A DNA stretch of 64,000 nt. It comes from Streptomyces sp. NBC_00271 (GTDB lineage Bacteria; Actinomycetota; Actinomycetes; Streptomycetales; Streptomycetaceae). Position 1 is the first letter of the stretch. Each line of letters begins with the position of its first letter. Positions 14,362 to 24,630 of this stretch are shown one piece after another. The DNA lies in NCBI RefSeq assembly GCF_036178845.1, contig NZ_CP108070.1, positions 8,618,001 to 8,682,000 of the forward strand. The letters are read 5' to 3'. Under the pieces are notes generated by a model, which was given only the letters and a program-made list of their open reading frames with translations, searched no databases and had not been told where the DNA came from. A program made the translations under genes and the position numbers.

Positions 14362-15102
14362 TCAGGCGCCGAGCGCCGCCAGCAGCGGGACGCGTGCCTC
14401 GTCGTACCGCTCCAGCAGGACCCGTGCCACCTCCGGCGCCGGGCCCAGTACGTCGGCCAGTACGTCCGCCTCGGCGGCCCCGCGGGCGATGCGGTCCGGG
14501 AGGAAGCCGGGGGCGAGGACGTAGGGGGCGACGGCGACACGTGCGCAACCGAGGGCGCGCAGTTCGCGCACCGCGTCCTCGGTGCGCGGAAGGGATGCGG
14601 AGGCGAACGCGGGCCGCACGGCGCACCAACCGGTGTGCCGCCACTCCCGCGCGATTTCTGCGATCACCGCGATCGCCTCCGGGTCGGTGGACCCCGCGGA
14701 GGCCAGCACGACCCCCGTCGAGGACTTGTCGGCGGGGGTCAGCCCCGCCTCGTACAGTCGGCGTTCGAGCGCCGCCGTCAGCAGGGGGGAGGGGCCGAGC
14801 ACCTCCGCCTGGCGGATGCGCAGCCGTGCCGGGGCCTCCCGCAGGACCGCCGGGATGTCCGCCTTCGCGTGGAAGGCGCGGGTGAGGAGAAGGGGGAGGG
14901 CCACTACATCGCGTACGCTCTCCGCCGCCAGGGACTCCAGCACCGCCGGCACCGAGGGGATGTTGAAGTCGAGGAAGCCGGTCTCCACGCGCAGGCCCGG
15001 ACGCCGGGCCCGCACACGCCGTACGAGGGCGTGCACCGTCGCGGCATGGCGCGGATCGCGGCTGCCGTGGGCGATGACCAGGAGGACCGGGCGACTCGTC
15101 AT
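14362..15102 (-). CDS. Sirohydrochlorin chelatase (CbiX/SirB family)
   Basis: This 246-aa class II chelatase inserts Fe2+ (or Co2+) into sirohydrochlorin; here the context indicates siroheme for the sulfite reductase at the other end of the operon. Two half-domains are visible. The first has LLVIAHGSRDPRH with metal-ligand His12 and LLLTRAFHAKADIP with His78. The second (residues about 125-246) is more degenerate (VVLASAGSTDPEA, YVLAPGFLPDRI). It is the last gene of the sulfur operon, 7 bp after the permease. Confidence 0.85.
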   Translation of the reverse strand: MTSRPVLLVIAHGSRDPRHAATVHALVRRVRARRPGLRVETGFLDFNIPSVPAVLESLAAESVRDVVALPLLLTRAFHAKADIPAVLREAPARLRIRQAEVLGPSPLLTAALERRLYEAGLTPADKSSTGVVLASAGSTDPEAIAVIAEIAREWRHTGWCAVRPAFASASLPRTEDAVRELRALGCARVAVAPYVLAPGFLPDRIARGAAEADVLADVLGPAPEVARVLLERYDEARVPLLAALGA

Positions 15103-15109
15103 GACGGGC

Positions 15110-16030
15110 TCAGCTCTTCACCAGGAGACCGCGGCTGCGCAGCACCCACCGCTCCAGCGGGCTGAAGATCAGCAGGTCGATGGCGATACCGACGAACAGG
15201 ATGAGGAAGATGGCGAGGAAGACCATCGACATGGAACTGGCGGTGCGGCCGTTCTCCAGCAGCTGACCGAGGCCGATGCCCAGGTCGGGGGAGGAGGCGA
15301 TGATCTCCGCCGCCATCAGGGAGCGCCAGGAGAACGCCCAGCCCTGCTTCAGACCGGCGAGATAGCCGGGCAGCGCGGCCGGCATCACGATGTGCCAGGT
15401 CCCGCGCAGGCCCGTCGCGCCCATCGTGCGGCCCGCCCGCAGGAACAGCGGCGGCACCTGGTCCACGCCCGACACCAGGCCGTTGGCGATGGACGGGACG
15501 GCACCGAGCAGGATCACCGCGAACATCATCGAGTTGTTCAGGCCCAGCCAGATGACGGCCGGCGGCACCCAGGCCACGGACGGCAGCGATTGGAGCCCGG
15601 AGAGGATCGGGCCGATCGCGGCGCGGACGAACTTCACCCGGGCCACCAGCAGACCCAGCGGCGTACCGATCACCAGGGCGAACAGGAACCCGACCAGACC
15701 GCGCGAGACACTCGTCCAGATGTAACCGAGCAGCGTGCCCTGCAGCCAGGCGTTCTTGACCTCGCCCCAGACGTCGGACGGGGAGGGCAGCTTGCTCGGG
15801 TCGGTGACGACCTTGAACGAGATCAGCGCCTGCCACACCACCAGCACCAGGGCGATGGCTACGAGCGGCGGCAGTATCTTCTCGACGAAGGTCTGGCGGA
15901 AGCCCGGCCGACCCGAATGCGCGGCCGTCTCCAGGGCGTCGAGGCCCGCTTCCAGGCCCGCCATGTCGCTGCCGGTGCTGTCCTTGACGTGCTGGTCGGC
16001 CGCGTCGGCCTTCGTCTCAGTGCTGGCCAT
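15110..16030 (-). CDS. ABC transporter permease, SsuC/TauC type
   Basis: This 306-aa permease belongs to an aliphatic sulfonate/taurine/nitrate-type importer. After a charged N-terminus, the first helix is at about residues 50-70 (ILPPLVAIALVLVVWQALI). The binding-protein-dependent transport motif (WRSLMAAEIIASSPDLGIGLGQLL) is in the C-terminal half. The ATG at 16030 overlaps the end of the ATPase gene by 14 bp. Its position inside the cysteine operon argues for a sulfur source rather than nitrate as substrate. Confidence 0.88.
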   Translation of the reverse strand: MASTETKADAADQHVKDSTGSDMAGLEAGLDALETAAHSGRPGFRQTFVEKILPPLVAIALVLVVWQALISFKVVTDPSKLPSPSDVWGEVKNAWLQGTLLGYIWTSVSRGLVGFLFALVIGTPLGLLVARVKFVRAAIGPILSGLQSLPSVAWVPPAVIWLGLNNSMMFAVILLGAVPSIANGLVSGVDQVPPLFLRAGRTMGATGLRGTWHIVMPAALPGYLAGLKQGWAFSWRSLMAAEIIASSPDLGIGLGQLLENGRTASSMSMVFLAIFLILFVGIAIDLLIFSPLERWVLRSRGLLVKS

Positions 16031-16805
16031 GGCGGCGGATCTCCCCACGCAGTTGTTCGGTGATCTCGACGGACAGCTCCGCCACGGCCGCGTCCTCGAT
16101 GCGACGCGGCTGCGGGATGTCGACCCGCCACTCGTGGGCCACCCGGCCCGGGCGCGAGGACAGCAGGACGACCCGCTCGGCCAGCCGCACCGCCTCACGC
16201 ACGTTGTGGGTGACGAAGAGGACGGACAGCCGCGTCTCGCGCCAGATCCTGGTCAGTTCGTCGTGCAGGACGTCCCGTGTGATGGCGTCCAGCGCAGCGA
16301 ACGGCTCGTCCATCAGCAGGATCTGGCTGTCCTGGGCGAGCGCGCGGGCCAGCGCGACGCGCTGGCGCATACCGCCGGACAGCTCGTGCACCCGCTTCCC
16401 GTACGCGCCCTTCAGCCGGACGAGTTCGAGCAACTCCTCCGCACGGTCGCGGCGTTCGGACTTCGCGACGCCGCGCAGCCGCAGCGCGAGCTCGATGTTC
16501 TTGCCCGCGGTCAGCCACGGGAAGAGGGCGTGCTCCTGGAACATCAGGGCCGGACGCCCGTTGGTCGTGATGCTGCCCGCGGTCGGGGCGTCGAGGCCCG
16601 CGACCAGGTTGAGCAGCGTCGACTTTCCACACCCCGAGGCCCCCAGGAGGGTGACGAACTCGCCCGGCGCGACATCGAGGGTGATGTCGTCGAGGACGAG
16701 CTGGGGCCCCGCGGGTCCGGCGAAGGACTTCGAGACATGCTCGATCCGGGCGGCGTGCTCCACCACTTCGGCGCCGTCGGCGGCCTTGGCGAGGGTCGTG
16801 GCCAT
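16017..16805 (-). CDS. ABC transporter ATP-binding protein, SsuB/TauB type
   Basis: This 262-aa ATPase energises the sulfonate-type importer. Walker A (GASGCGKST, about 55-63), the signature LSGGMRQRVALARAL, Walker B (LLMDEPFAALD) and the H-loop (FVTHNVREA) are all intact. The ATG at 16805 is preferred over an ATG at 16829 because AGGAGGT sits 8 nt before it. Confidence 0.92.
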   Translation of the reverse strand: MATTLAKAADGAEVVEHAARIEHVSKSFAGPAGPQLVLDDITLDVAPGEFVTLLGASGCGKSTLLNLVAGLDAPTAGSITTNGRPALMFQEHALFPWLTAGKNIELALRLRGVAKSERRDRAEELLELVRLKGAYGKRVHELSGGMRQRVALARALAQDSQILLMDEPFAALDAITRDVLHDELTRIWRETRLSVLFVTHNVREAVRLAERVVLLSSRPGRVAHEWRVDIPQPRRIEDAAVAELSVEITEQLRGEIRRHGQH

Positions 16806-16841
16806 GGTCGTCACCTCCTGGGAACTCATCGGTGTGGGTCC

Positions 16842-17957
16842 TTACTTGACGCCGAGGCCGGCGTCGGCGACCGTGCTCTCGCCCGCGGCCCCCAGGACCT
16901 TGTTCAGGAGCGTGAGGTCGTAGATCCCGCCCAGGTCCGGCTTCTCCAGCAGGCCCGCCTTCACCGCGTGCTCCGCCTCGGTGTTGAGGGTGGCGGCCAG
17001 CGGGTCATTGGTGATCTGGATGGACTTCCAGGCCGGGTCGAGCACCTTCGCCGGGAGCTCCTTGCCGGAGTCGACCTTCAGCTGGGCGTTGGCCGCCGCC
17101 TTCGCCTGGTCGGGGTTGGCGTTGATCCACTTGTTGGTGTCGACCGAGCCCTTCAGCACGGCCTCGACGACCTTCGGGTGCTCCTTGAGGAACTTCTGCG
17201 ACACGATGATGTTCGTGATCACGAACTTCTTGTCGGGCCACAGCGAGGCCTCGTCGAGCAGGACCTTGCCGCCCTCGGCGACCAGCTTGGACGCGGTCGG
17301 CTCCGGCACCCAGGCGCCGTCGATGGAGCCGGACTTGTAGGCGTCCGGGGTGATCTTGTTGTCCGTACGGACGACCGAGACGTCGCCCTTGCCGCTCTGC
17401 GCGTCGACCTTCCAGCCCTGGTCCGCGATCCAGTTGAGGAACGCCACGTCCTGCGTGTTGCCGAGCTGCGGGGTCGCGATCTTCTTGCCCTTGACGTCCT
17501 TCAGGGACTTGATCTTCTTCGGGTTCACCACGAGCTTCACGCCGCCGGACGCCGAACCGCCGATGATGCGCAGGCTCTTGCCCTGGGACTTGGTGAAGCC
17601 GTTGATCGCGGGCGAGGGGCCGATCCAACCGATGTCGATCGAGCCCGAGTTGAGCGCCTCGATCTCGGAGGGGCCCGCGTTGAAGATGGAGTACTCCGCC
17701 TTCGTGCCGCCCAGCGCCTTCTGGAAGAGGCCTTCCTGGCGGCCGACCAGAGCGGTCGCGTGCGTGAGGTTGCCGAAGTAGCCGATCTTCACGGTGTCGA
17801 CACCGTCGATCTTCGAGGATCCGGCGGCGACCTTCTCCTTCGAGGACGAGGAGTCCTTGGAGTCGGAGCCATAGCTGCACGCGGCGAGCGCGAGCAGGGG
17901 GAGTGCGACGGCGGCGGCTATGCCACGGCGTACGAGGTTGGAGCGGATGGCAGGCAC
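16842..17957 (-). CDS. ABC transporter substrate-binding lipoprotein, SsuA/TauA/NrtA type
   Basis: This 371-aa exported binding protein has a lipobox (LALAAC) after the signal helix, a Ser/Lys-rich linker, and the SsuA-type core (DTVKIGYFGNLTHATALVGRQ, SGSIDIGWIGPSPAINGF, DAYKSGSIDGAWVPEP). It should capture organosulfonates or a related anion outside the membrane for the two genes that follow. The start is GTG at 17957, preceded by GAGAGG. The spacer upstream (about 125 bp to the micro-ORF) could hold its own promoter, but none is clear. Confidence 0.88.
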   Translation of the reverse strand: MPAIRSNLVRRGIAAAVALPLLALAACSYGSDSKDSSSSKEKVAAGSSKIDGVDTVKIGYFGNLTHATALVGRQEGLFQKALGGTKAEYSIFNAGPSEIEALNSGSIDIGWIGPSPAINGFTKSQGKSLRIIGGSASGGVKLVVNPKKIKSLKDVKGKKIATPQLGNTQDVAFLNWIADQGWKVDAQSGKGDVSVVRTDNKITPDAYKSGSIDGAWVPEPTASKLVAEGGKVLLDEASLWPDKKFVITNIIVSQKFLKEHPKVVEAVLKGSVDTNKWINANPDQAKAAANAQLKVDSGKELPAKVLDPAWKSIQITNDPLAATLNTEAEHAVKAGLLEKPDLGGIYDLTLLNKVLGAAGESTVADAGLGVK

Positions 17958-18083
17958 GGGAGGGGTTCCTCTCGTTGGCCCGGCGGTCACGTTTTCAGGT
18001 CGTGGCCGGGAGGTCGGCAGGTCTTCGTCGTCGCAACCGGGACGTCGGGTGGGGGGACGGGGCGCGCAGGCAGTGCGCGTACG

Positions 18084-18189: not shown

Positions 18190-19545
18190 TCAGAAGTCCC
18201 ACCCGTCGTCGTCGCCCTCGTCCTTGACCGGCTGCGGCGCGGCGAACGACTCGCCGACCATGCCCGCGGTCAGCGTGGTGCCGTCCGCCGGGTCGATCAG
18301 GATGAACGCGCCGGTGCGCCGGGAGTCGGCGTACGAGTCGAGCGGAAGCGGTTCGGCGGCACGGATCTTGACGCGGCCTATGTCGTTGGCGACCAGCTGA
18401 CCCGGGTGCGGGTGCAGCGACAGGTCGTCGAGGGTCAGCCGGGACGGGATGTCCTTGACGATCGCCTTCACCGTGCGGGTGCCGTGCTTGAGCAGCACCC
18501 GGTGGCCGACGGTGAGCGGCTGGTCGGCCACGTGGCAGACGGTCGCCTCGACGTCCTGCGTGGTCGGGGGCGCGTCCTTGCTCGGCACGATCAGGTCGCC
18601 GCGCGAGACGTCGATGTCGTCCTCCAGCAGGAGGGTCACCGACTGCGGGGTCCACGCCACGTCGACGGGCTTGCCCAGCAGATCGATCCCGGCGACCTTC
18701 GTGGTGCGCCCGGAGGGCAGCACGGTCACGCTCTCGCCGACCCGGAAGCTGCCGGCGGCGATCTGACCGGCGTACCCCCGGTAGTCGGGGTGCTCGGCGG
18801 TCTGCGGGCGGATCACGTACTGCACGGGCAGACGGGCGTGGCAGTGCCCCAGGTCGTGGCTGACCGGGACCGTCTCCAGGTGCTCCAGGACCGTCGGGCC
18901 GCCGTACCAGTCCATGTTCGCGGAGGCGTCCACCACGTTGTCACCGGCGAGCGCCGAGATCGGGATCGCGGTGATCTCGGGAACGCCCAGCTCGGAGGCG
19001 TACGCCGTGAACTCCTCGGCGATCGCCGCGAAGACGGACTCCTTGTACTCGACGAGGTCCATCTTGTTGACGGCGAGGACCACGTGCGGGACACGCAGCA
19101 GTGCGGCGACGGCGGCGTGCCGGCGGGTCTGCTCGATGACGCCGTTGCGGGCGTCGACGAGGACGACGGCCAGGTCGGCGGTCGAGGCGCCGGTGACCAT
19201 GTTCCGGGTGTACTGCACATGCCCGGGGGTGTCGGCGAGGATGAACCGGCGGCGCGCCGTCGCGAAGTAGCGGTAGGCGACGTCGATGGTGATGCCCTGC
19301 TCGCGCTCGGCGCGCAGGCCGTCGGTGAGGAGGGCGAGGTCGGGGGTGTCCTGGCCGCGGCTCGCCGAGACGCGCTCGACGGCCTCCAGCTGGTCCGTCA
19401 GGACCGACTTGGAGTCGTGCAGCAGTCGTCCGACCAGCGTGGACTTGCCGTCGTCGACGGAACCGGCGGTCGCGAAGCGCAGGAGCGTGGTCGCCGACAA
19501 CTGCTCGACCGACAGCGGCTCGGTGGGTTCGGTGGTGCTGGTCAT
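18190..19545 (-). CDS. cysN: Sulfate adenylyltransferase subunit 1 (GTPase)
   Basis: CysN (451 aa) couples GTP hydrolysis to formation of adenosine 5'-phosphosulfate from ATP and sulfate, together with CysD. The EF-Tu-like GTPase motifs are intact: G1 GSVDDGKST (28-36), DTPGH, NKMD, followed by beta-barrel domains II and III. It is CysN only, not a CysNC fusion, and a separate cysC is present. The ATG at 19545 lies 2 nt after the cysD stop (TAGACATG). Confidence 0.97.
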   Translation of the reverse strand: MTSTTEPTEPLSVEQLSATTLLRFATAGSVDDGKSTLVGRLLHDSKSVLTDQLEAVERVSASRGQDTPDLALLTDGLRAEREQGITIDVAYRYFATARRRFILADTPGHVQYTRNMVTGASTADLAVVLVDARNGVIEQTRRHAAVAALLRVPHVVLAVNKMDLVEYKESVFAAIAEEFTAYASELGVPEITAIPISALAGDNVVDASANMDWYGGPTVLEHLETVPVSHDLGHCHARLPVQYVIRPQTAEHPDYRGYAGQIAAGSFRVGESVTVLPSGRTTKVAGIDLLGKPVDVAWTPQSVTLLLEDDIDVSRGDLIVPSKDAPPTTQDVEATVCHVADQPLTVGHRVLLKHGTRTVKAIVKDIPSRLTLDDLSLHPHPGQLVANDIGRVKIRAAEPLPLDSYADSRRTGAFILIDPADGTTLTAGMVGESFAAPQPVKDEGDDDGWDF

Positions 19546-19547
19546 GT

Positions 19548-20486
19548 CTAGAAGTACCCCTCGCGCTTGCGGTCTTCCATCGCGGCCTCGGACATCTTGT
19601 CGTCGGCGCGGGTGGCGCCCCGCTCGGTGAGCCGGGAGGCGGCGATCTCGGTGATCACGGCGTCCAGCGTGGTCGCGTCGGAGTCGACGGCGCCGGTGCA
19701 CGACATGTCGCCGACGGTCCGGTAGCGGACGAGCCGCTTCTCGACCGTCTCGCCGTCCTTCGGGCCGCCCCACTCACCGGCGGTCAGCCACATGTTCGAC
19801 CGCTGGAAGACCTCGCGCTCGTGCGCGAAGTAGATCTCGGGCAGTTCGATGCCTTCGCGGGCGATGTACTGCCAGACGTCCAGTTCGGTCCAGTTGGAGA
19901 GGGGGAAGACGCGGACGTGTTCACCGGGGGCGTGGCGGCCGTTGTAGAGCTGCCACAGTTCGGGGCGCTGGCGTCGGGGGTCCCACTGGGAGAACTCGTC
20001 GCGCAGTGAGAACACGCGTTCCTTGGCGCGGGCCTTCTCTTCGTCGCGGCGTCCGCCGCCGAAGACGGCGTCGAAGCGCTCGGACTGGATCTTCTCGGTG
20101 AGGGGCACGGTCTGCAGGGGGTTGCGGGTGCCGTCGGGGCGTTCGCGCAGGATTCCGCGGTCGATGTAGTCCTGTACGGAGGCGATGTGCAGCCGCAGTC
20201 CGTGCTTCTCGACGGTGCGGTCGCGGTATTCGAGGACTTCGGGGAAGTTGTGTCCGGTGTCGACGTGCAGCAGGGTGAAGGGGATCGCGGCGGGGGCGAA
20301 GGCCTTCAGGGCGAGGTGCAGCATGACGATGGAGTCCTTGCCGCCGGAGAAGAGGATCACCGGCCGTTCGAACTCGCCCGCGACCTCACGGAAGATGTGG
20401 ACGGCCTCCGACTCCAGGGCGTCCAGGTGCGAGAGCGCGTACGGGCTGCTGTCCGTCTCCTCGGAGACACTGGCGACGGTCGTCAT
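19548..20486 (-). CDS. cysD: Sulfate adenylyltransferase subunit 2
   Basis: CysD (312 aa) is the catalytic adenylyl-transferring subunit of ATP sulfurylase. The PP-loop FSGGKDS (46-52) binds ATP pyrophosphate, and the family motifs FGGGRRDEEKARAKERVFS and FPLSNWTELDVWQYI are complete. Its start overlaps the cysC stop as ATGA, so expression is coupled to cysC, and cysN follows 2 nt later. Confidence 0.97.
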   Translation of the reverse strand: MTTVASVSEETDSSPYALSHLDALESEAVHIFREVAGEFERPVILFSGGKDSIVMLHLALKAFAPAAIPFTLLHVDTGHNFPEVLEYRDRTVEKHGLRLHIASVQDYIDRGILRERPDGTRNPLQTVPLTEKIQSERFDAVFGGGRRDEEKARAKERVFSLRDEFSQWDPRRQRPELWQLYNGRHAPGEHVRVFPLSNWTELDVWQYIAREGIELPEIYFAHEREVFQRSNMWLTAGEWGGPKDGETVEKRLVRYRTVGDMSCTGAVDSDATTLDAVITEIAASRLTERGATRADDKMSEAAMEDRKREGYF

Positions 20487-21055
20487 GCGAGACCCCTTTC
20501 GGTGAGCAGCGCATGGAGCGCGGCCGCGGACTCCTGCACGGACTGGGTGTGCGACTCGATGCGCAGATCGGGCGACACGGGCTCCTCGTACGGGTCGTCG
20601 ACGCCGGTCAGCCCCGAGATCTCCCCCGCGGCCTGCTTGGCGTACAGCCCCTTCACATCGCGTACGGAGCAGACCTCGACCGGCGTCGCCACGTGCACCT
20701 CCAGGTACGGGGTGCCGCCGGTCTGGTGACGCCCCCGGACCGCCTCGCGGCTGTCGGCGTACGGCGCGATCACCGGGACGAGCGCCTTGACGCCGTTGCG
20801 GGAGAGCAGCTCGGCGAGGAATCCGATCCGCTGCACGTTCGTGTCGCGGTCCTCGCGCGAGAAACCGAGGCCCGACGAGAGGAACTCGCGGATCTCGTCG
20901 CCGTCGAGCACCTCGACACGGTGGCCCTCGTCGCGCAGCCGGCCGGCCAACTCGTACGCGATGGTGGTCTTGCCGGCGCTCGGCAGACCCGTGAGCCAGA
21001 TGGTGGCTCCGGTCGTCACTTGCTGCTCCTGGGAGATCTGGGTGGTCGTGGTCAT
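20483..21055 (-). CDS. cysC: Adenylylsulfate kinase
   Basis: CysC (190 aa) phosphorylates APS to PAPS. It has the P-loop GLPSAGKTT (23-31), then LDGDEIREFLSSGLGFSREDRDTNVQRIG and the KGLYAKQAAGEISGLTG lid typical of APS kinases. The ATGA overlap with cysH ties their translation. Because the adjacent CysH looks like an APS rather than PAPS reductase, CysC may supply PAPS for sulfation or for sulfate storage rather than for reduction (inference). Confidence 0.96.
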   Translation of the reverse strand: MTTTTQISQEQQVTTGATIWLTGLPSAGKTTIAYELAGRLRDEGHRVEVLDGDEIREFLSSGLGFSREDRDTNVQRIGFLAELLSRNGVKALVPVIAPYADSREAVRGRHQTGGTPYLEVHVATPVEVCSVRDVKGLYAKQAAGEISGLTGVDDPYEEPVSPDLRIESHTQSVQESAAALHALLTERGLA

Positions 21056-21798
21056 CCGTGCAGCCCGCACTCGGTCTTGGAACGTCCCGCCCAGCGGCCG
21101 GCGCGGGCGTCCTCGCCCTCCAGCACACGGCGGGTGCAGGGCGCGCAGCCGACGGAGGCGTAGCCGTCCATCAGCAGCGGGTTGGTGAGGACGCCGTGCT
21201 CGGCGACGTACGCGTCCACGTCGTCCTGCGTCCAGCGGGCGATCGGCGAGATCTTGACCTTCTGCCGCTTCTCGTCCCAGCCGACGACCGGGGTGTTCGC
21301 CCGGGTCGGGGACTCGTCGCGGCGCAGTCCGGTCGCCCAGGCGTCGTACCTGGTCAGGCCCTCTTCCAGGGGCTTGACCTTGCGCAGGGCGCAGCACAGG
21401 TCGGGGTCGCGGTCGTGCAGCTTGGGGCCGTACTCGGCGTCCTGCTCGGCGACGGTCTGACGCGGGGTGAGGGTGATGACGTTGACGTCCATCACGGCCT
21501 CGACCGCGTCCCGGGTGCCGATGGTCTCGGGGAAGTGGTAGCCGGTGTCGAGGAAGACCACGTCGACTTGGCTGTCGCCCGGCTGGGCGCGGGAGGCGAG
21601 GTGGGCGACGACCGCGTCCTCCATGGAGGAGGTCACGCAGAACGTCTTGCCGAAGGTCTCGACGGCCCACTGGAGGATCTCCAGGGCCGAGGCGTCCTCG
21701 AGGTCGCGCCCCGCCTGCTCGGCGAGGCGCTTCAGGTCCTCCGCAGTACGGCCTTCCCGGCCGTCCTGATCTTCCCGATCCTTCTGAATCGTCGTCAT
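21052..21798 (-). CDS. cysH: Assimilatory adenylylsulfate (APS) reductase
   Basis: CysH (248 aa) reduces APS (or PAPS) to sulfite with thioredoxin. The PP-loop-like core FCVTSSMEDAVV and FLDTGYHFPET is followed by the cysteine pattern of iron-sulfur APS reductases: CC at 135-136, CAPC at 218-221 for a [4Fe-4S] cluster, and the catalytic C-terminal Cys244 (ECGLHG). E. coli-type PAPS reductases lack the first four cysteines. The start overlaps the stop of the zinc-ribbon gene (ATGA). Confidence 0.95.
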   Translation of the reverse strand: MTTIQKDREDQDGREGRTAEDLKRLAEQAGRDLEDASALEILQWAVETFGKTFCVTSSMEDAVVAHLASRAQPGDSQVDVVFLDTGYHFPETIGTRDAVEAVMDVNVITLTPRQTVAEQDAEYGPKLHDRDPDLCCALRKVKPLEEGLTRYDAWATGLRRDESPTRANTPVVGWDEKRQKVKISPIARWTQDDVDAYVAEHGVLTNPLLMDGYASVGCAPCTRRVLEGEDARAGRWAGRSKTECGLHG

Positions 21799-21974
21799 TT
21801 CTCGTCCCCTCCACCTTCGTTGCGCTGAACCCCACGGGCGAGCAGCCCGAGGAACTTCAACTGGAAGGCCCGGTTGCACGCCGCGCATTCCCACGCGCCG
21901 TGACCCTGCTCGCTCGGACGGAGGTCTTCGTCGCCGCAGTAGGGGCAGTAGAAGGGAGCCGCTCGCTCGCTCAC
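21795..21974 (-). CDS. 59-aa zinc-ribbon protein of the sulfur operon
   Basis: This small protein, with a GTG start, lies between the sulfite reductase and cysH. Two Cys pairs, YCPYC near residue 10 and WECAAC near residue 30, predict a zinc ribbon; the tail is a short hydrophobic-basic helix (FQLKFLGLLARGVQ) and an acidic end. It overlaps the stop of the reductase as GTGA and the start of cysH as ATGA, so it is fully embedded in the translational relay. I recall a similar small ORF at this place in S. coelicolor. Its function is unknown; metal or Fe-S delivery is a guess. Confidence 0.85.
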   Translation of the reverse strand: MSERAAPFYCPYCGDEDLRPSEQGHGAWECAACNRAFQLKFLGLLARGVQRNEGGGDEK

Positions 21975-23665
21975 GACAGCGACTCCTCGCTCGCACGGGC
22001 GGCCCAGGTGGCGAAGCGCTCGTCGTCCTCGCGCTCCGCCTGGAAGCGCTTGAGGACCCGCTCGATGTAGTCGGGCAGTTCGTCCGAGGTGACCTTCAGG
22101 CCACGGACCTTGCGGCCGAAGCCGGCCTCCAGGCCGAGCGCGCCGCCCAGGTGCACCTGGAAGCCCTCGACCTGCTCGCCCTCGTCGTTCAGGACCAGCT
22201 GGCCCTTGAGACCGATGTCCGCGACCTGGATGCGGGCGCAGGCGTTCGGGCAGCCGTTGATGTTGATGGTGATGGGCTCTTCGAACTCGGGGATGCGGCG
22301 CTCGAGTTCGTCGATCAGGGAAGCACCGCGCGCCTTGGTCTCGACGATCGCGAGCTTGCAGTACTCGATGCCGGTGCAGGCCATGGTGCCGCGCCGGAAG
22401 GTGGAGGGCTTGACGGTCAGGTCGAGGGCTTCGAGGCCCTCCACCAGCGAGTCGACCTGGTCCTCCGTCACGTCGAGCACGACCATCTTCTGCTCGACGG
22501 TGGTGCGCAGCCGGCCCGAGCCGTGCGCCGCGGCCAGCTCGGCGATCTTCGTGAGGGTGGTGCCGTCCACGCGGCCGACGCGCGGCGCGAAGCCGACGTA
22601 GAAGCGGCCGTCCTGCTGGCGGTGCACACCGACGTGGTCGCGCCAGCGGGCGACCGGCTGGTCGGGGGCCGGACCGTCGACGAGCTTCCGCTCGAGGTAC
22701 TCGTCCTCCAGGATCTGGCGGAACTTCTCCACGCCCCAGTCGGCGACCAGGAACTTCAGACGGGCGCGGGTGCGCAGGCGCCGGTAGCCGTAGTCGCGGA
22801 AGATCGAGATGACGCCCTCGTAGACGTCCGGGACCTCGTCCAGCGGGACCCAGGCGCCGAGGCGCTGGCCGATCTTCGGGTTGGTGGAGAGGCCACCGCC
22901 GACCCAGAGGTCGAAGCCGGGGCCGTGCTCCGGGTGGTTCACGCCGACGAAGGCGACGTCGTTGATCTCGTGCGCCACGTCGAGCAGCGGCGAGCCGGAG
23001 ATCGCGGACTTGAACTTGCGGGGCAGGTTCGAGAAGTCCTTGTTGCCGATGATCCGGCGGTGGATCTCGTCGATGGCCGGGGTGCCGTCGATGATCTCGT
23101 CCTCGGCGATGCCGGCGACGGGCGAGCCGAGGATGACGCGGGGCGTGTCACCGCAGGCCTCGGTGGTGGACAGCCCGACGGCTTCGAGCCGGTTCCAGAT
23201 CTCGGGGACGTCCTCGATACGGATCCAGTGGTACTGCACGTTCTGGCGGTCGGTGAGGTCGGCGGTGCCGCGCGCGAACTCCTGCGAGATCTCGCCGATG
23301 ACGCGCAGCTGTTCGGTGGTCAGCCGGCCGCCGTCGATGCGGACGCGCAGCATGAAGTACTTGTCGTCCAGCTCCTCCGGCTCCAGGATCGCGGTCTTGC
23401 CGCCGTCGATCCCGGGCTTGCGCTGGGTGTACAGCCCCCACCAGCGCATACGTCCACGAAGGTCGTTGGGGTCGATCGAGTCGAAGCCGCGCTTCGAGTA
23501 GATCGTCTCAATGCGTGTCCGCACATTGAGACCGTCGTCGTCCTTCTTGAACTGTTCGTTTCCGTTGAGCGGGGTGAAGTGACCCACGGCCCACTGACCC
23601 TCGCCGCGGTGACGACTCACCTTGCGGCGGGGCGCGGCGGCGGGATTCTGCGGGGTGGCGGCCAT
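21971..23665 (-). CDS. sir: Ferredoxin-dependent sulfite (nitrite/sulfite) reductase
   Basis: This 564-aa siroheme/[4Fe-4S] enzyme reduces sulfite to sulfide in six electron steps. The cluster cysteines are Cys430 and Cys436 (ACTGIEYC) and Cys472 and Cys476 (NGCPNAC). Two ferrodoxin-like half-domains and two NIR_SIR domains alternate in the usual order. Placement in the cys operon makes sulfite the likely substrate. The ATG at 23665 is preferred; the frame is open upstream to an ATG at 23755, but that segment overlaps the regulatory leader. A GAAGGA ribosome site ends 10 nt before the start and can be masked by a hairpin (see the leader entry). Confidence 0.95.
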   Translation of the reverse strand: MAATPQNPAAAPRRKVSRHRGEGQWAVGHFTPLNGNEQFKKDDDGLNVRTRIETIYSKRGFDSIDPNDLRGRMRWWGLYTQRKPGIDGGKTAILEPEELDDKYFMLRVRIDGGRLTTEQLRVIGEISQEFARGTADLTDRQNVQYHWIRIEDVPEIWNRLEAVGLSTTEACGDTPRVILGSPVAGIAEDEIIDGTPAIDEIHRRIIGNKDFSNLPRKFKSAISGSPLLDVAHEINDVAFVGVNHPEHGPGFDLWVGGGLSTNPKIGQRLGAWVPLDEVPDVYEGVISIFRDYGYRRLRTRARLKFLVADWGVEKFRQILEDEYLERKLVDGPAPDQPVARWRDHVGVHRQQDGRFYVGFAPRVGRVDGTTLTKIAELAAAHGSGRLRTTVEQKMVVLDVTEDQVDSLVEGLEALDLTVKPSTFRRGTMACTGIEYCKLAIVETKARGASLIDELERRIPEFEEPITININGCPNACARIQVADIGLKGQLVLNDEGEQVEGFQVHLGGALGLEAGFGRKVRGLKVTSDELPDYIERVLKRFQAEREDDERFATWAARASEESLS

Positions 23666-23801
23666 GGTTGATACGTCCTTCGGGACTGCGGGACAGGAAG
23701 GAGAGCGGCTCTCAACTGCGCATATGGGCGCATACGGAAAGTACGCGCGCGTCATTGCGCAGAGGGACGCAAAAGGGAGAATGTCGGCTGGGCCGGGGCT
23801 G
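23666..23801 (-). promoter_or_regulatory. Attenuator-like leader of the sulfur operon
   Basis: This is the 136-nt stretch between the leader peptide stop and the sulfite reductase start. On the mRNA, UCCUUC (23702-23697) can pair with GAAGGA (23681-23676), the Shine-Dalgarno of the reductase, leaving a 15-nt loop. A competing hairpin GAGAGC/GCUCUC at 23713-23701 uses part of the same bases, so the two folds exclude each other. That is the arrangement expected for translational control by a stalled ribosome. The mechanism is inferred. Confidence 0.5.
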
Positions 23802-23885
23802 TCAGCTCGCCGGACAGATGGCGCTGGACATGCGGCCGAGGTCGACGTGCCGCCGACTCACCAAGGCAATTCCAGTTCCAGACAT
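23802..23885 (-). CDS. Cysteine leader peptide upstream of sulfite reductase
   Basis: A 27-codon ORF starts at ATG 23885 and stops with TGA at 23802. Its end reads SRRHVDLGRMSSAICPAS, which matches, as I remember it, the short peptides annotated in Streptomyces as 'putative leader peptide' ahead of sulfur genes. The single cysteine codon lies four codons before the stop, so a shortage of charged Cys-tRNA would stall ribosomes there. GTG (23861) is an alternative start giving 19 residues. The ribosome site of the ATG is weak. Confidence 0.75.
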   Translation of the reverse strand: MSGTGIALVSRRHVDLGRMSSAICPAS

Positions 23886-24057
23886 GACGGAAGCGTGTCA
23901 CGGGGATCTCGGGCCAGTCCACCGTCATCCATCATGTGGACACCCTTGTCCCGAAGGGTGAGACGAAGGTGTTGTCGGTCACACAGCTGGGCAGGAATGG
24001 ACGATCCTGCGGCCCGGTGACCGCCCGAGGGCGGGCCGAGGGTCGGCCCGCGGCAGG
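23886..24057 (-). promoter_or_regulatory. Promoter region of the sulfur operon
   Basis: This spacer runs from the acetyltransferase stop to the leader peptide. It contains a GC hairpin at 24031-24051 (9-bp stem, GCGGGCCGA and complement, loop of 3), likely the terminator of the acetyltransferase gene. A second small hairpin at 23941-23960 (CACCCTT/AAGGGTG) lies closer to the leader. No clear -35/-10 pair was found. A second open frame from ATG 23935 overlaps the leader peptide in another frame; it has no leader-peptide character. Confidence 0.35.
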
Positions 24058-24630
24058 TCAGACGGCTCGCGCGCCCGGCCAGGGTCCGGGCGTGGCGACC
24101 TCCGGCTCCTCCTCCACCTTGGTGTCGAAGAGCTTGAAGCCGCGGCGCAGGTAGTTGTCCATCGCGTGCTCCCCGTCCTTGCTGCATGTATGCAGCCAGA
24201 CACGCTTCGTCTCGGGCCGCCCCGGCCAGCGCTCCGCCAGGTCCCAGGCTCGCGCCACCCCGTACGAGAGCAGGTGCCCGCCGATCCGCCGGCCCCGGAA
24301 GGCGGGTATCAGTCCGAAGTACATGACCTCGACAACGCCGTCGTCCTGCGGGTCCAGCTCGACATAGCCCGCGGGCGTTCCCCGGTCGTAAGCGACCCAG
24401 GTCTCCACGCCGGGGCGGTCCAGGACCTCCTGCCACTGCGCGTACGTCCAGCTCAGGCGGTCGGTCCAGCGGATGTCTCCGCCCACGGAGGCGTACAGGA
24501 AGCGGTTGAACTCGGGCGAGGGGACTTCGGAGCGCACGATCCTGACGTCGCCGTCGGGTGTGATCGCGGGGAGCAGGTCGCTCGACGCGGTCTGCTCCAG
24601 GGACCAGGTGGTCACAGTGACGTTGCTCAT
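24058..24630 (-). CDS. GNAT-family N-acetyltransferase
   Basis: This 190-aa GCN5-related acetyltransferase has the acetyl-CoA-binding motif A, VEVMYFGLIPAFRGRRIGGHLLSYGVARAW, with the R/Q-x-x-G-x-G/A signature as RGRRIG. Motif B-like VWLHTCSKDGEHAMDNYLRRGF follows. The acceptor is unknown. It is a single gene ahead of the sulfur operon on the same strand, separated from it by a terminator-like hairpin. Confidence 0.85.
   Translation of the reverse strand: MSNVTVTTWSLEQTASSDLLPAITPDGDVRIVRSEVPSPEFNRFLYASVGGDIRWTDRLSWTYAQWQEVLDRPGVETWVAYDRGTPAGYVELDPQDDGVVEVMYFGLIPAFRGRRIGGHLLSYGVARAWDLAERWPGRPETKRVWLHTCSKDGEHAMDNYLRRGFKLFDTKVEEEPEVATPGPWPGARAV

Follow-up and report, generated by a model that had tools for sequence, protein, structure and literature searches.

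The single cysteine codon of a short ORF that precedes the sulfite reductase gene (sir) of Streptomyces sp. NBC_00271 follows a rule that holds almost without exception in a whole family of leader peptides: it is UGU, it is followed by a pyrimidine, and a constant number of codons separates it from a conserved nascent-chain motif. This near-absolute UGU-pyrimidine rule is the unexpected part of our results. We read UGU here as a deliberately weak sensor codon set behind the motif, and consider it probable that the upstream ORF, on a leaderless transcript, senses cysteine via the ribosome and controls the sir-cysHCDN-ssu genes. The window, i.e. the whole stretch of 64,000 nucleotides that was analysed, contains the following parts of the leader:

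23802-23885, minus strand: leader ORF of 27 codons (ATG...TGA), encoding MSGTGIALVSRRHVDLGRMSSAICPAS
23832-23855, minus strand: peptide motif R-R-H-V-D-L-G-R, codons 11-18, which would be placed in the exit tunnel
23841-23843, minus strand: conserved Asp codon GAC
23814-23816, minus strand: putative sensor Cys codon UGU (TGT), ninth codon after the conserved Asp
23813, minus strand: pyrimidine (C) directly 3' of the UGU codon

The leader ORF is real, and belongs to a leader-peptide family that already carries a label. The preliminary description had reported a 27-codon ORF with a single Cys codon ahead of the reductase gene, and this was confirmed, including the 136 nt between the leader stop and the ATG of sir, whose A is position 23665. 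That the ORF encodes a leader peptide is strongly supported by a match to the NCBIfam model NF042934, "putative leader peptide" (32.9 bits versus a curated cut-off of 27), and by the presence of the leader within 600 nt upstream of sir in 80 out of 80 fetched loci, far more than chance would give; these loci, all titled Streptomyces, had been found by a scan for the Sir protein, independently of the leader. The window ORF did not reach the cut-off of 45 of NF042936 (Ms4527A Cys-rich leader; 28.2 bits), and no Rfam cis-regulator was found at gathering score, the sole match at E up to 1 having 17.2 bits versus 40. Downstream of the leader lie the following genes:

21971-23665, minus strand: sir, nitrite/sulfite reductase family, with NIR_SIR and NIR_SIR_ferr domains
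21052-21747, minus strand: cysH, phosphoadenylyl-sulfate reductase (NF002537, 266 bits versus a cut-off of 154)
20483-21028, minus strand: cysC, adenylyl-sulfate kinase (TIGR00455, 190 bits versus a cut-off of 138.7)
19563-20510, minus strand: cysD, sulfate adenylyltransferase small subunit (TIGR02039, 445 bits versus a cut-off of 396.6)
18190-19515, minus strand: cysN, sulfate adenylyltransferase large subunit (TIGR02034, 548 bits versus a cut-off of 336.1)
14362-17960, minus strand: SsuA-family binding protein, ABC ATPase, permease and sirohydrochlorin-chelatase-like gene

NCBIfam models related to sir were matched below their cut-offs only; the SsuA-family binding protein scored over its cut-off, and the best named models for the ATPase, the permease and the chelatase-like gene scored below theirs. 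Because of gene order and strand, the operon that starts with sir probably extends through these last genes, to position 14362.

Together with the window, the fetched loci provided 81 sir leaders, in all of which the leader ATG is kept. The order and class samples added 42 sir loci, some of them repeats from the earlier sets; a leader was recognised by pattern in 31, with TGT in 30 and Ser in one; some of the 11 others are pattern misses or contig edges, and one of them (L322) does have a family match. In the sir leader L277 Ser replaces Cys, the peptide being otherwise near-identical to that of the sir leader L275. Leaders just upstream of sir were seen in further genera as well (e.g. G174, G113, G143, G096, G106, G137, G122 and G062). 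The NF042934-type family was detected in 60 out of 60 sampled genomes of the order, presumably Streptomycetales, with 2 to 14 matches each, and in 110 out of 148 genomes (59 out of 81 genera) of the class, presumably Actinomycetes; 14 control genomes had no match at E 0.001. The genome of the window has 11 matches at E up to 1e-3, of which 8 exceed the cut-off. Four more are weaker (E 0.007 to 0.11) and appear genuine when inspected, which amounts to about 15 leaders in total. One of these, L006, has lost the Cys and ends SSAY, and the gene downstream of it is glutathione-transferase-like by eye.

The proposed link of the leader family to sulfur genes is strongly supported by the content of the downstream genes. 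Pfam models were applied to 20 out of 26 representative downstream genes (L139, L174, L193, L195 and L197 were left out, and L004 is sir), one of which rendered no match. In this genome and its relatives these genes include a ThiS-like protein, cysteine dioxygenase (CDO), rhodanese and a Cys/Met PLP enzyme, as well as a sulfatase, flavin and FMN reductases, luciferase-like monooxygenases and ABC components. Others, of the 2OG oxygenase, ROK, SDF, SCO4226-like and sugar-type binding protein families, have no obvious role in sulfur metabolism.

The Cys codon is TGT in 81 out of 81 sir leaders, the window included. For the order, 124 loci were examined and 9, including L006 of the window's genome, were dropped for having no leader by pattern; in the 115 leaders retained (113 distinct) Cys lies nine codons after Asp without exception, and is encoded by TGT in 114. 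The sole UGC leader, L182, precedes a response-regulator-like gene by eye. The other Cys codons of these leaders are TGC in 109 cases and TGT in 4 (Fisher, 4.5e-59), a comparison dominated by few clusters, with 77 out of 110 TGC codons in clusters 0, 1 and 3; Cys usage in 45 predicted genes of the window is TGC 138, TGT 26. For the class, 57 loci, 4 of which were dropped, provided 53 leaders; two have no Cys at Asp+9, and in the other 51 (49 distinct, with L214 equal to L258 and L247 equal to L248; a few Streptomyces members are included) that Cys is TGT throughout, even in leaders with Cys runs. Their other Cys codons are TGC 52 and TGT 17 upstream of the putative sensor, and TGC 12 and TGT 7 downstream. 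Five more order leaders (L105, L111, L182, L194 and L209) were left out before clustering on account of uncertain gene starts; in the remaining 110, the Cys position shows TGT alone, while the remaining conserved residues (R, H, V, D, L, R, A, S) are written with several synonymous codons whose third base is G/C in 70 to 100% of cases. Because motif models served to collect the non-sir leader sets, conservation of the motif is partly ascertained in them, and codon choice is not; at several loci, gene starts were set by rule or by hand.

The base that follows UGU is a pyrimidine in 101 out of 110 order leaders and in 50 out of 51 class leaders. A pyrimidine follows 94 out of 204 Cys codons of the window ORFs (p=3.5e-17 for the excess in the leaders) and 19 out of 29 of their TGT codons (p=0.0009), this last proportion indicating that the effect is partly general. 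It also follows 68 out of 112 other Cys codons of the leaders (p=4e-8). The pyrimidine after UGU is supplied by CGN, CCN, CTN and CAN codons alike, and the preference therefore looks more like a nucleotide rule than an amino-acid rule. A pattern scan of the genome, not necessarily exhaustive, found two tRNA-Cys genes, both with anticodon GCA, and UGU would therefore be read by wobble. G-U wobble and a 3' pyrimidine context both make for weak decoding, and in our reading UGU-pyrimidine would be the weakest way in which a cysteine can be written. The tRNA-Cys genes are found at L330:1471-1544 and L331:1470-1543, the second being the sole tRNA in its 3-kb locus.

Sequence signatures upstream of the ATG suggest that the leader is itself transcribed without a leader:

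23892-23897, minus strand: probable -10 box CACGCT, 6 nt 5' of the ATG, at -12
23916-23921, minus strand: possible -35 box TGGACT, 18 nt from the -10 box, mostly conserved in relatives

Out of 163 leaders, 130 offer an in-frame ATG at 8-29 codons ahead of Asp. In these, with each gene cluster given its weight, the pattern NANNNT starts at -14, -13 and -12 of the nearest such ATG in 10, 39 and 24% of cases, respectively, versus 0-8% at each offset from -45 to -15; it also reaches 18% at -4 and -1, offsets that overlap the start codon region. A sigma-70 consensus scan rendered no site. An inverted repeat, GTCCAC-N13-GTGGAC (23941-23917, minus strand), overlaps the possible -35 box; its GTCC...TGGAC is mostly kept in relatives, and it is a possible repressor operator.

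The mechanism that we favour would run as follows. The transcript would start at the leader ATG and ribosomes would load on it directly. By the time a ribosome reached UGU, the residues R-R-x-V-D-L-x-R would already have been made, 6-13 residues earlier in the chain, and would lie in the exit tunnel. If Cys-tRNA were scarce, UGU would be decoded slowly (G-U wobble for the GCA tRNA-Cys, weak 3' context) and the nascent chain may prolong the pause; the paused ribosome would bring about higher expression of sir-cysHCDN-ssu. With ample cysteine the ribosome would finish and leave, and expression of the operon would drop. The pause might be read out by polarity or early termination in the C-rich spacer, or by some other fold, the hairpin over the Shine-Dalgarno (SD) sequence seen in the window being unsupported. 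Several observations speak against this explanation: next to polycysteine leaders, a sensor made of one Cys codon is thin; for some of the genes downstream (2OG oxygenase, ROK, SDF, sugar-type binding protein) a sulfur connection is not obvious; it would be odd for cysteine dioxygenase to be induced when cysteine is short; the Cys is absent from leader L006 and replaced by Ser in L277; and no conserved RNA structure that links the pause to expression of sir was found.

It could also be the case that the RRxVDLxR chain itself stops the ribosome with Cys-tRNA in the P site, and that a free ligand, and not tRNA charging, is what is sensed. In arrest peptides of the TnaC/ErmC type a conserved nascent chain precedes a fixed stop site. 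The leaders share the conserved chain before a fixed site, and conservation of the motif makes arrest a candidate here: its 9-codon distance to Cys is fixed in 115 out of 115 leaders, with mixed synonymous codons, and it is conserved far beyond the needs of a charging sensor. Against this, the non-sir sets were gathered by motif models, which accounts for part of that conservation, and what follows Cys is not one constant residue (R, P, L, Q, C, stop and others), yet its codon begins almost always with a pyrimidine; a codon-context effect therefore fits better than an A-site amino acid, and we hold arrest sensing to be unlikely.

A Rho-type or polarity attenuation, in which the naked C-rich spacer invites termination and a paused ribosome keeps coupling or shields the site, is given a similarly low probability. 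It concerns this region:

23682-23801, minus strand: C-rich, G-poor spacer between the leader and the SD sequence, by base composition

The 81 sir spacers average 0.44 C and 0.25 G and those of 23 gene clusters 0.46 and 0.27, with C exceeding G in 22 out of the 23, unlike the average of 32 control upstream regions (0.35 C, 0.34 G; Mann-Whitney p=1.5e-7), an imperfect comparison in that the control regions include promoters. No intrinsic terminator was found in 23500-24100, which is in keeping with such a mechanism, and Seliverstov et al. (2005) proposed Rho for mycobacterial cys leaders, calling the prediction weak in the accessible part of that paper (PMC1262725). On the other hand, a ribosome at UGU would cover little of the spacer, which mostly measures 40-200 nt. 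The spacer composition leaves room for a termination or polarity read-out, and is a hint only, because a C skew is also seen in the SD region (0.23) and over the first 150 nt of the genes (0.17). Within the spacer, AGAGCCGC (23712-23705, minus strand) is well conserved among the sir relatives, as is the extended SD block CGAAGGACGTA (23682-23672, minus strand).

The preliminary description had drawn a different read-out, in which UCCUUC sequesters the SD sequence of sir, a second hairpin competes for the same bases, and a ribosome stalled at the Cys codon switches the fold. The elements are as follows:

23676-23681, minus strand: SD sequence GAAGGA of sir, within the conserved CGAAGGACGTA
23697-23702, minus strand: anti-SD UCCUUC, in a stretch absent from most relatives
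23713-23701, minus strand: competing hairpin GAGAGCCGCUCUC

Both structures exist in the window as claimed. Folding prediction for the window shows the SD base-paired, and when a stall is modelled in the window alone, accessibility of the SD goes up from 0.14 to 0.25. The SD side folds moderately better than its shuffled versions, 5 out of 200 of which do as well (z=-2.16), and the whole leader region not clearly so (z=-1.62, 17 out of 200). What failed is conservation. In most aligned relatives there is a gap at the positions of both UCCUUC and GAGAGCCGCUCUC; the hairpin is present in 3 of the 76 sir leaders that could be scored, the other five of the 81 having no recognised GAAGGA-like SD; and 5 of the 76 contain a complement of the SD hexamer, with 3.07 expected by shuffling, four of these five being the window and its three closest relatives. 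Conservation of the stem was not observed in the aligned Streptomyces sir leaders, and a conserved SD hairpin in the sir spacer can be discarded.

Nor did the choice between folds by a stalled ribosome hold up. In runs with an assumed ribosome footprint and thermodynamic folding only, mean SD accessibility in the 81 sir leaders was 0.423 free and 0.417 stalled (up by more than 0.1 in 4 leaders, down in 6), and the mean change over 24 gene clusters was +0.02 ± 0.02. The outliers were the CDO cluster (+0.13, 18 leaders) and the single leaders L195 (+0.42) and L161 (-0.26); cluster 9 (2 leaders) rose by 0.11 on the stall, but as much or more with the ribosome upstream. Freeing of the SD by a stall is therefore rejected as a general mechanism, there being no mean effect at sir or over the 24 clusters. 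The hairpins start about 100 nt downstream of the Cys codon, beyond the footprint of the stalled ribosome. A general pairing between the UGU region and the SD was suggestive in 14 paralogs (permutation p=0.13) and vanished in the average of 110 leaders over 24 clusters, which showed no excess of cognate complementarity; folding and complementarity tests of the sir leaders and the 24 clusters found no conserved RNA structure that would turn a pause into expression of sir. Reportedly, attenuators of M. smegmatis have an RBS-sequestering structure; folding models and conservation disclosed no conserved counterpart of it at sir. Translation attenuation is, in the available parts of the literature, cited for mycobacterial cysteine genes, and SD masking does find some favour in the CDO cluster, where CCGUCCUG, just after UGU, is an exact 8-nt complement of the SD CAGGACGG in 11 out of 18 leaders and RNAalifold recovers the pairing; RNAalifold showed no compensatory change in it, and its covariation term is slightly unfavourable. 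For sir we regard SD masking as improbable. Among all the leaders, the clearest SD-masking attenuator is that of the CDO cluster (L002, L124 and 16 further loci).

Since near-invariance at the nucleotide level is restricted to this codon and one more base, UGU(Y) might be an RNA element (for pairing, or as a protein or nuclease site) or a programmed frameshift site, a reading that we find very unlikely: the UGU triplet is in codon register with the peptide, changing its last U to C shifts the folding energy by 0.17 ± 0.27 kcal/mol over 22 clusters, and, seen from UGU, each of the three frames is occupied by the gene in some leaders (43, 34 and 33 out of 110). A structural role of that U was discarded on the barely changed folding energy, and a programmed frameshift into the gene, the +1 frame being often open, on the occurrence of the gene in every frame. 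That the ORF is spurious, i.e. conserved promoter or operator DNA open by chance, is scarcely credible: the upstream dyad and promoter are conserved too, and the sir leaders are conserved at the nucleotide level, but amino acids are kept with codon turnover across 24 gene clusters, in one reading frame with its ATG and a curated family match, and ribosome occupancy is described for the mycobacterial cysA2 counterpart in the accessible text of PMC4633059.

Sensing of Cys-tRNA by the leader, as initially proposed, remains plausible by analogy with mycobacteria, whereas the hairpin switch drawn for it is not conserved; the element reads as the Streptomyces counterpart of the mycobacterial cysteine attenuator, and we read it as a one-cysteine variant of the polycysteine attenuators. 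According to the parts of PMC4633059 that were available, small ORFs with cysteine codons are conserved in mycobacteria ahead of cysA2, Rv0485 and nirA/Msmeg_4527, where the mRNAs are leaderless, and the cysA2 counterpart shows ribosome occupancy. Cysteine-responsive attenuation in M. smegmatis is mentioned, in the portions available, by papers citing Canestrari et al. 2020 (PMC13236596, PMC9094748, PMC9031893). The polycysteine ORFs of M. smegmatis resemble the window leader, whose sequence signature suggests leaderless transcription, in being leaderless, in having cysteine genes downstream and in the ribosome sensing proposed for them, as far as those sources go, and differ from it in having contiguous Cys codons instead of a single UGU. 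The small ORF of the NF042936 model (Ms4527A/nirA) shares with the window leader its position before a sulfite/nitrite reductase gene, a leaderless transcript (probable for the window leader) and an RRHxD motif, but its leaders have several Cys; five matches over the cut-off (L237-L241) also carry UGU at Asp+9. NF042934 shares motif and length with the window ORF, and its label (cis_reg_atten) comes with an annotation listing that is silent on mechanism, codon and target. The cys-operon leaders of the Actinobacteria Mycobacterium, P. acnes and B. longum lack conserved terminators in the part of Seliverstov et al. (2005; PMC1262725) that was available, as does the window leader, but have Cys runs near the stop and, in that part, come from organisms other than Streptomyces. 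The Rhodobacterales uORFC-8-2 before cysS (PMC8632094, accessible part) is likewise a Cys-codon uORF before a cysteine gene; it differs in two tandem Cys codons, dominance of UGC and a U-run read as an intrinsic terminator. Eight leader peptides of S. lividans, including a metL leader with three Cys, are presented in the accessible part of PMC8079986, none of them named there as cysteine-dependent, and the portion available of PMC4833913 does not mention cys genes. Among the matches listed by a literature search, neither the UGU rule nor these leaders of Streptomyces were the subject of any paper, which is weak evidence of absence given the thin coverage of subscription papers and preprints.

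More tentatively, the rule may extend across the Actinomycetes: RRxVDLxR would prime the ribosome, a single UGU-pyrimidine nine residues further on would sense, and selection would hold that codon at many loci, so that up to about 15 leaders respond jointly without a shared transcription factor. If this is true, selection for UGU over its synonym UGC would be near-absolute at one position throughout a leader family, and nature would have set up a clean test of the part that wobble and 3' context play in making a ribosome sensor more or less sensitive. It would also imply that antibiotic-producing bacteria have a large cysteine regulon recognisable from sequence, and would open a route to assign sulfur roles to unknown downstream genes. 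In some genera the leader is divergent from sir, or there are leaders both ways (e.g. G079:C251, G172:C217 and G094:C101), which suggests a shared control region for divergent sulfur operons.

Within the sir leaders, the codons at 23864-23856 (minus strand) are also kept: TTG and AGT, which are uncommon in GC-rich genes, occur in 81 out of 81 and GTG in 80 out of 81. GTG-AGT is also kept in L275 and L277, and TTG is CTC in both.
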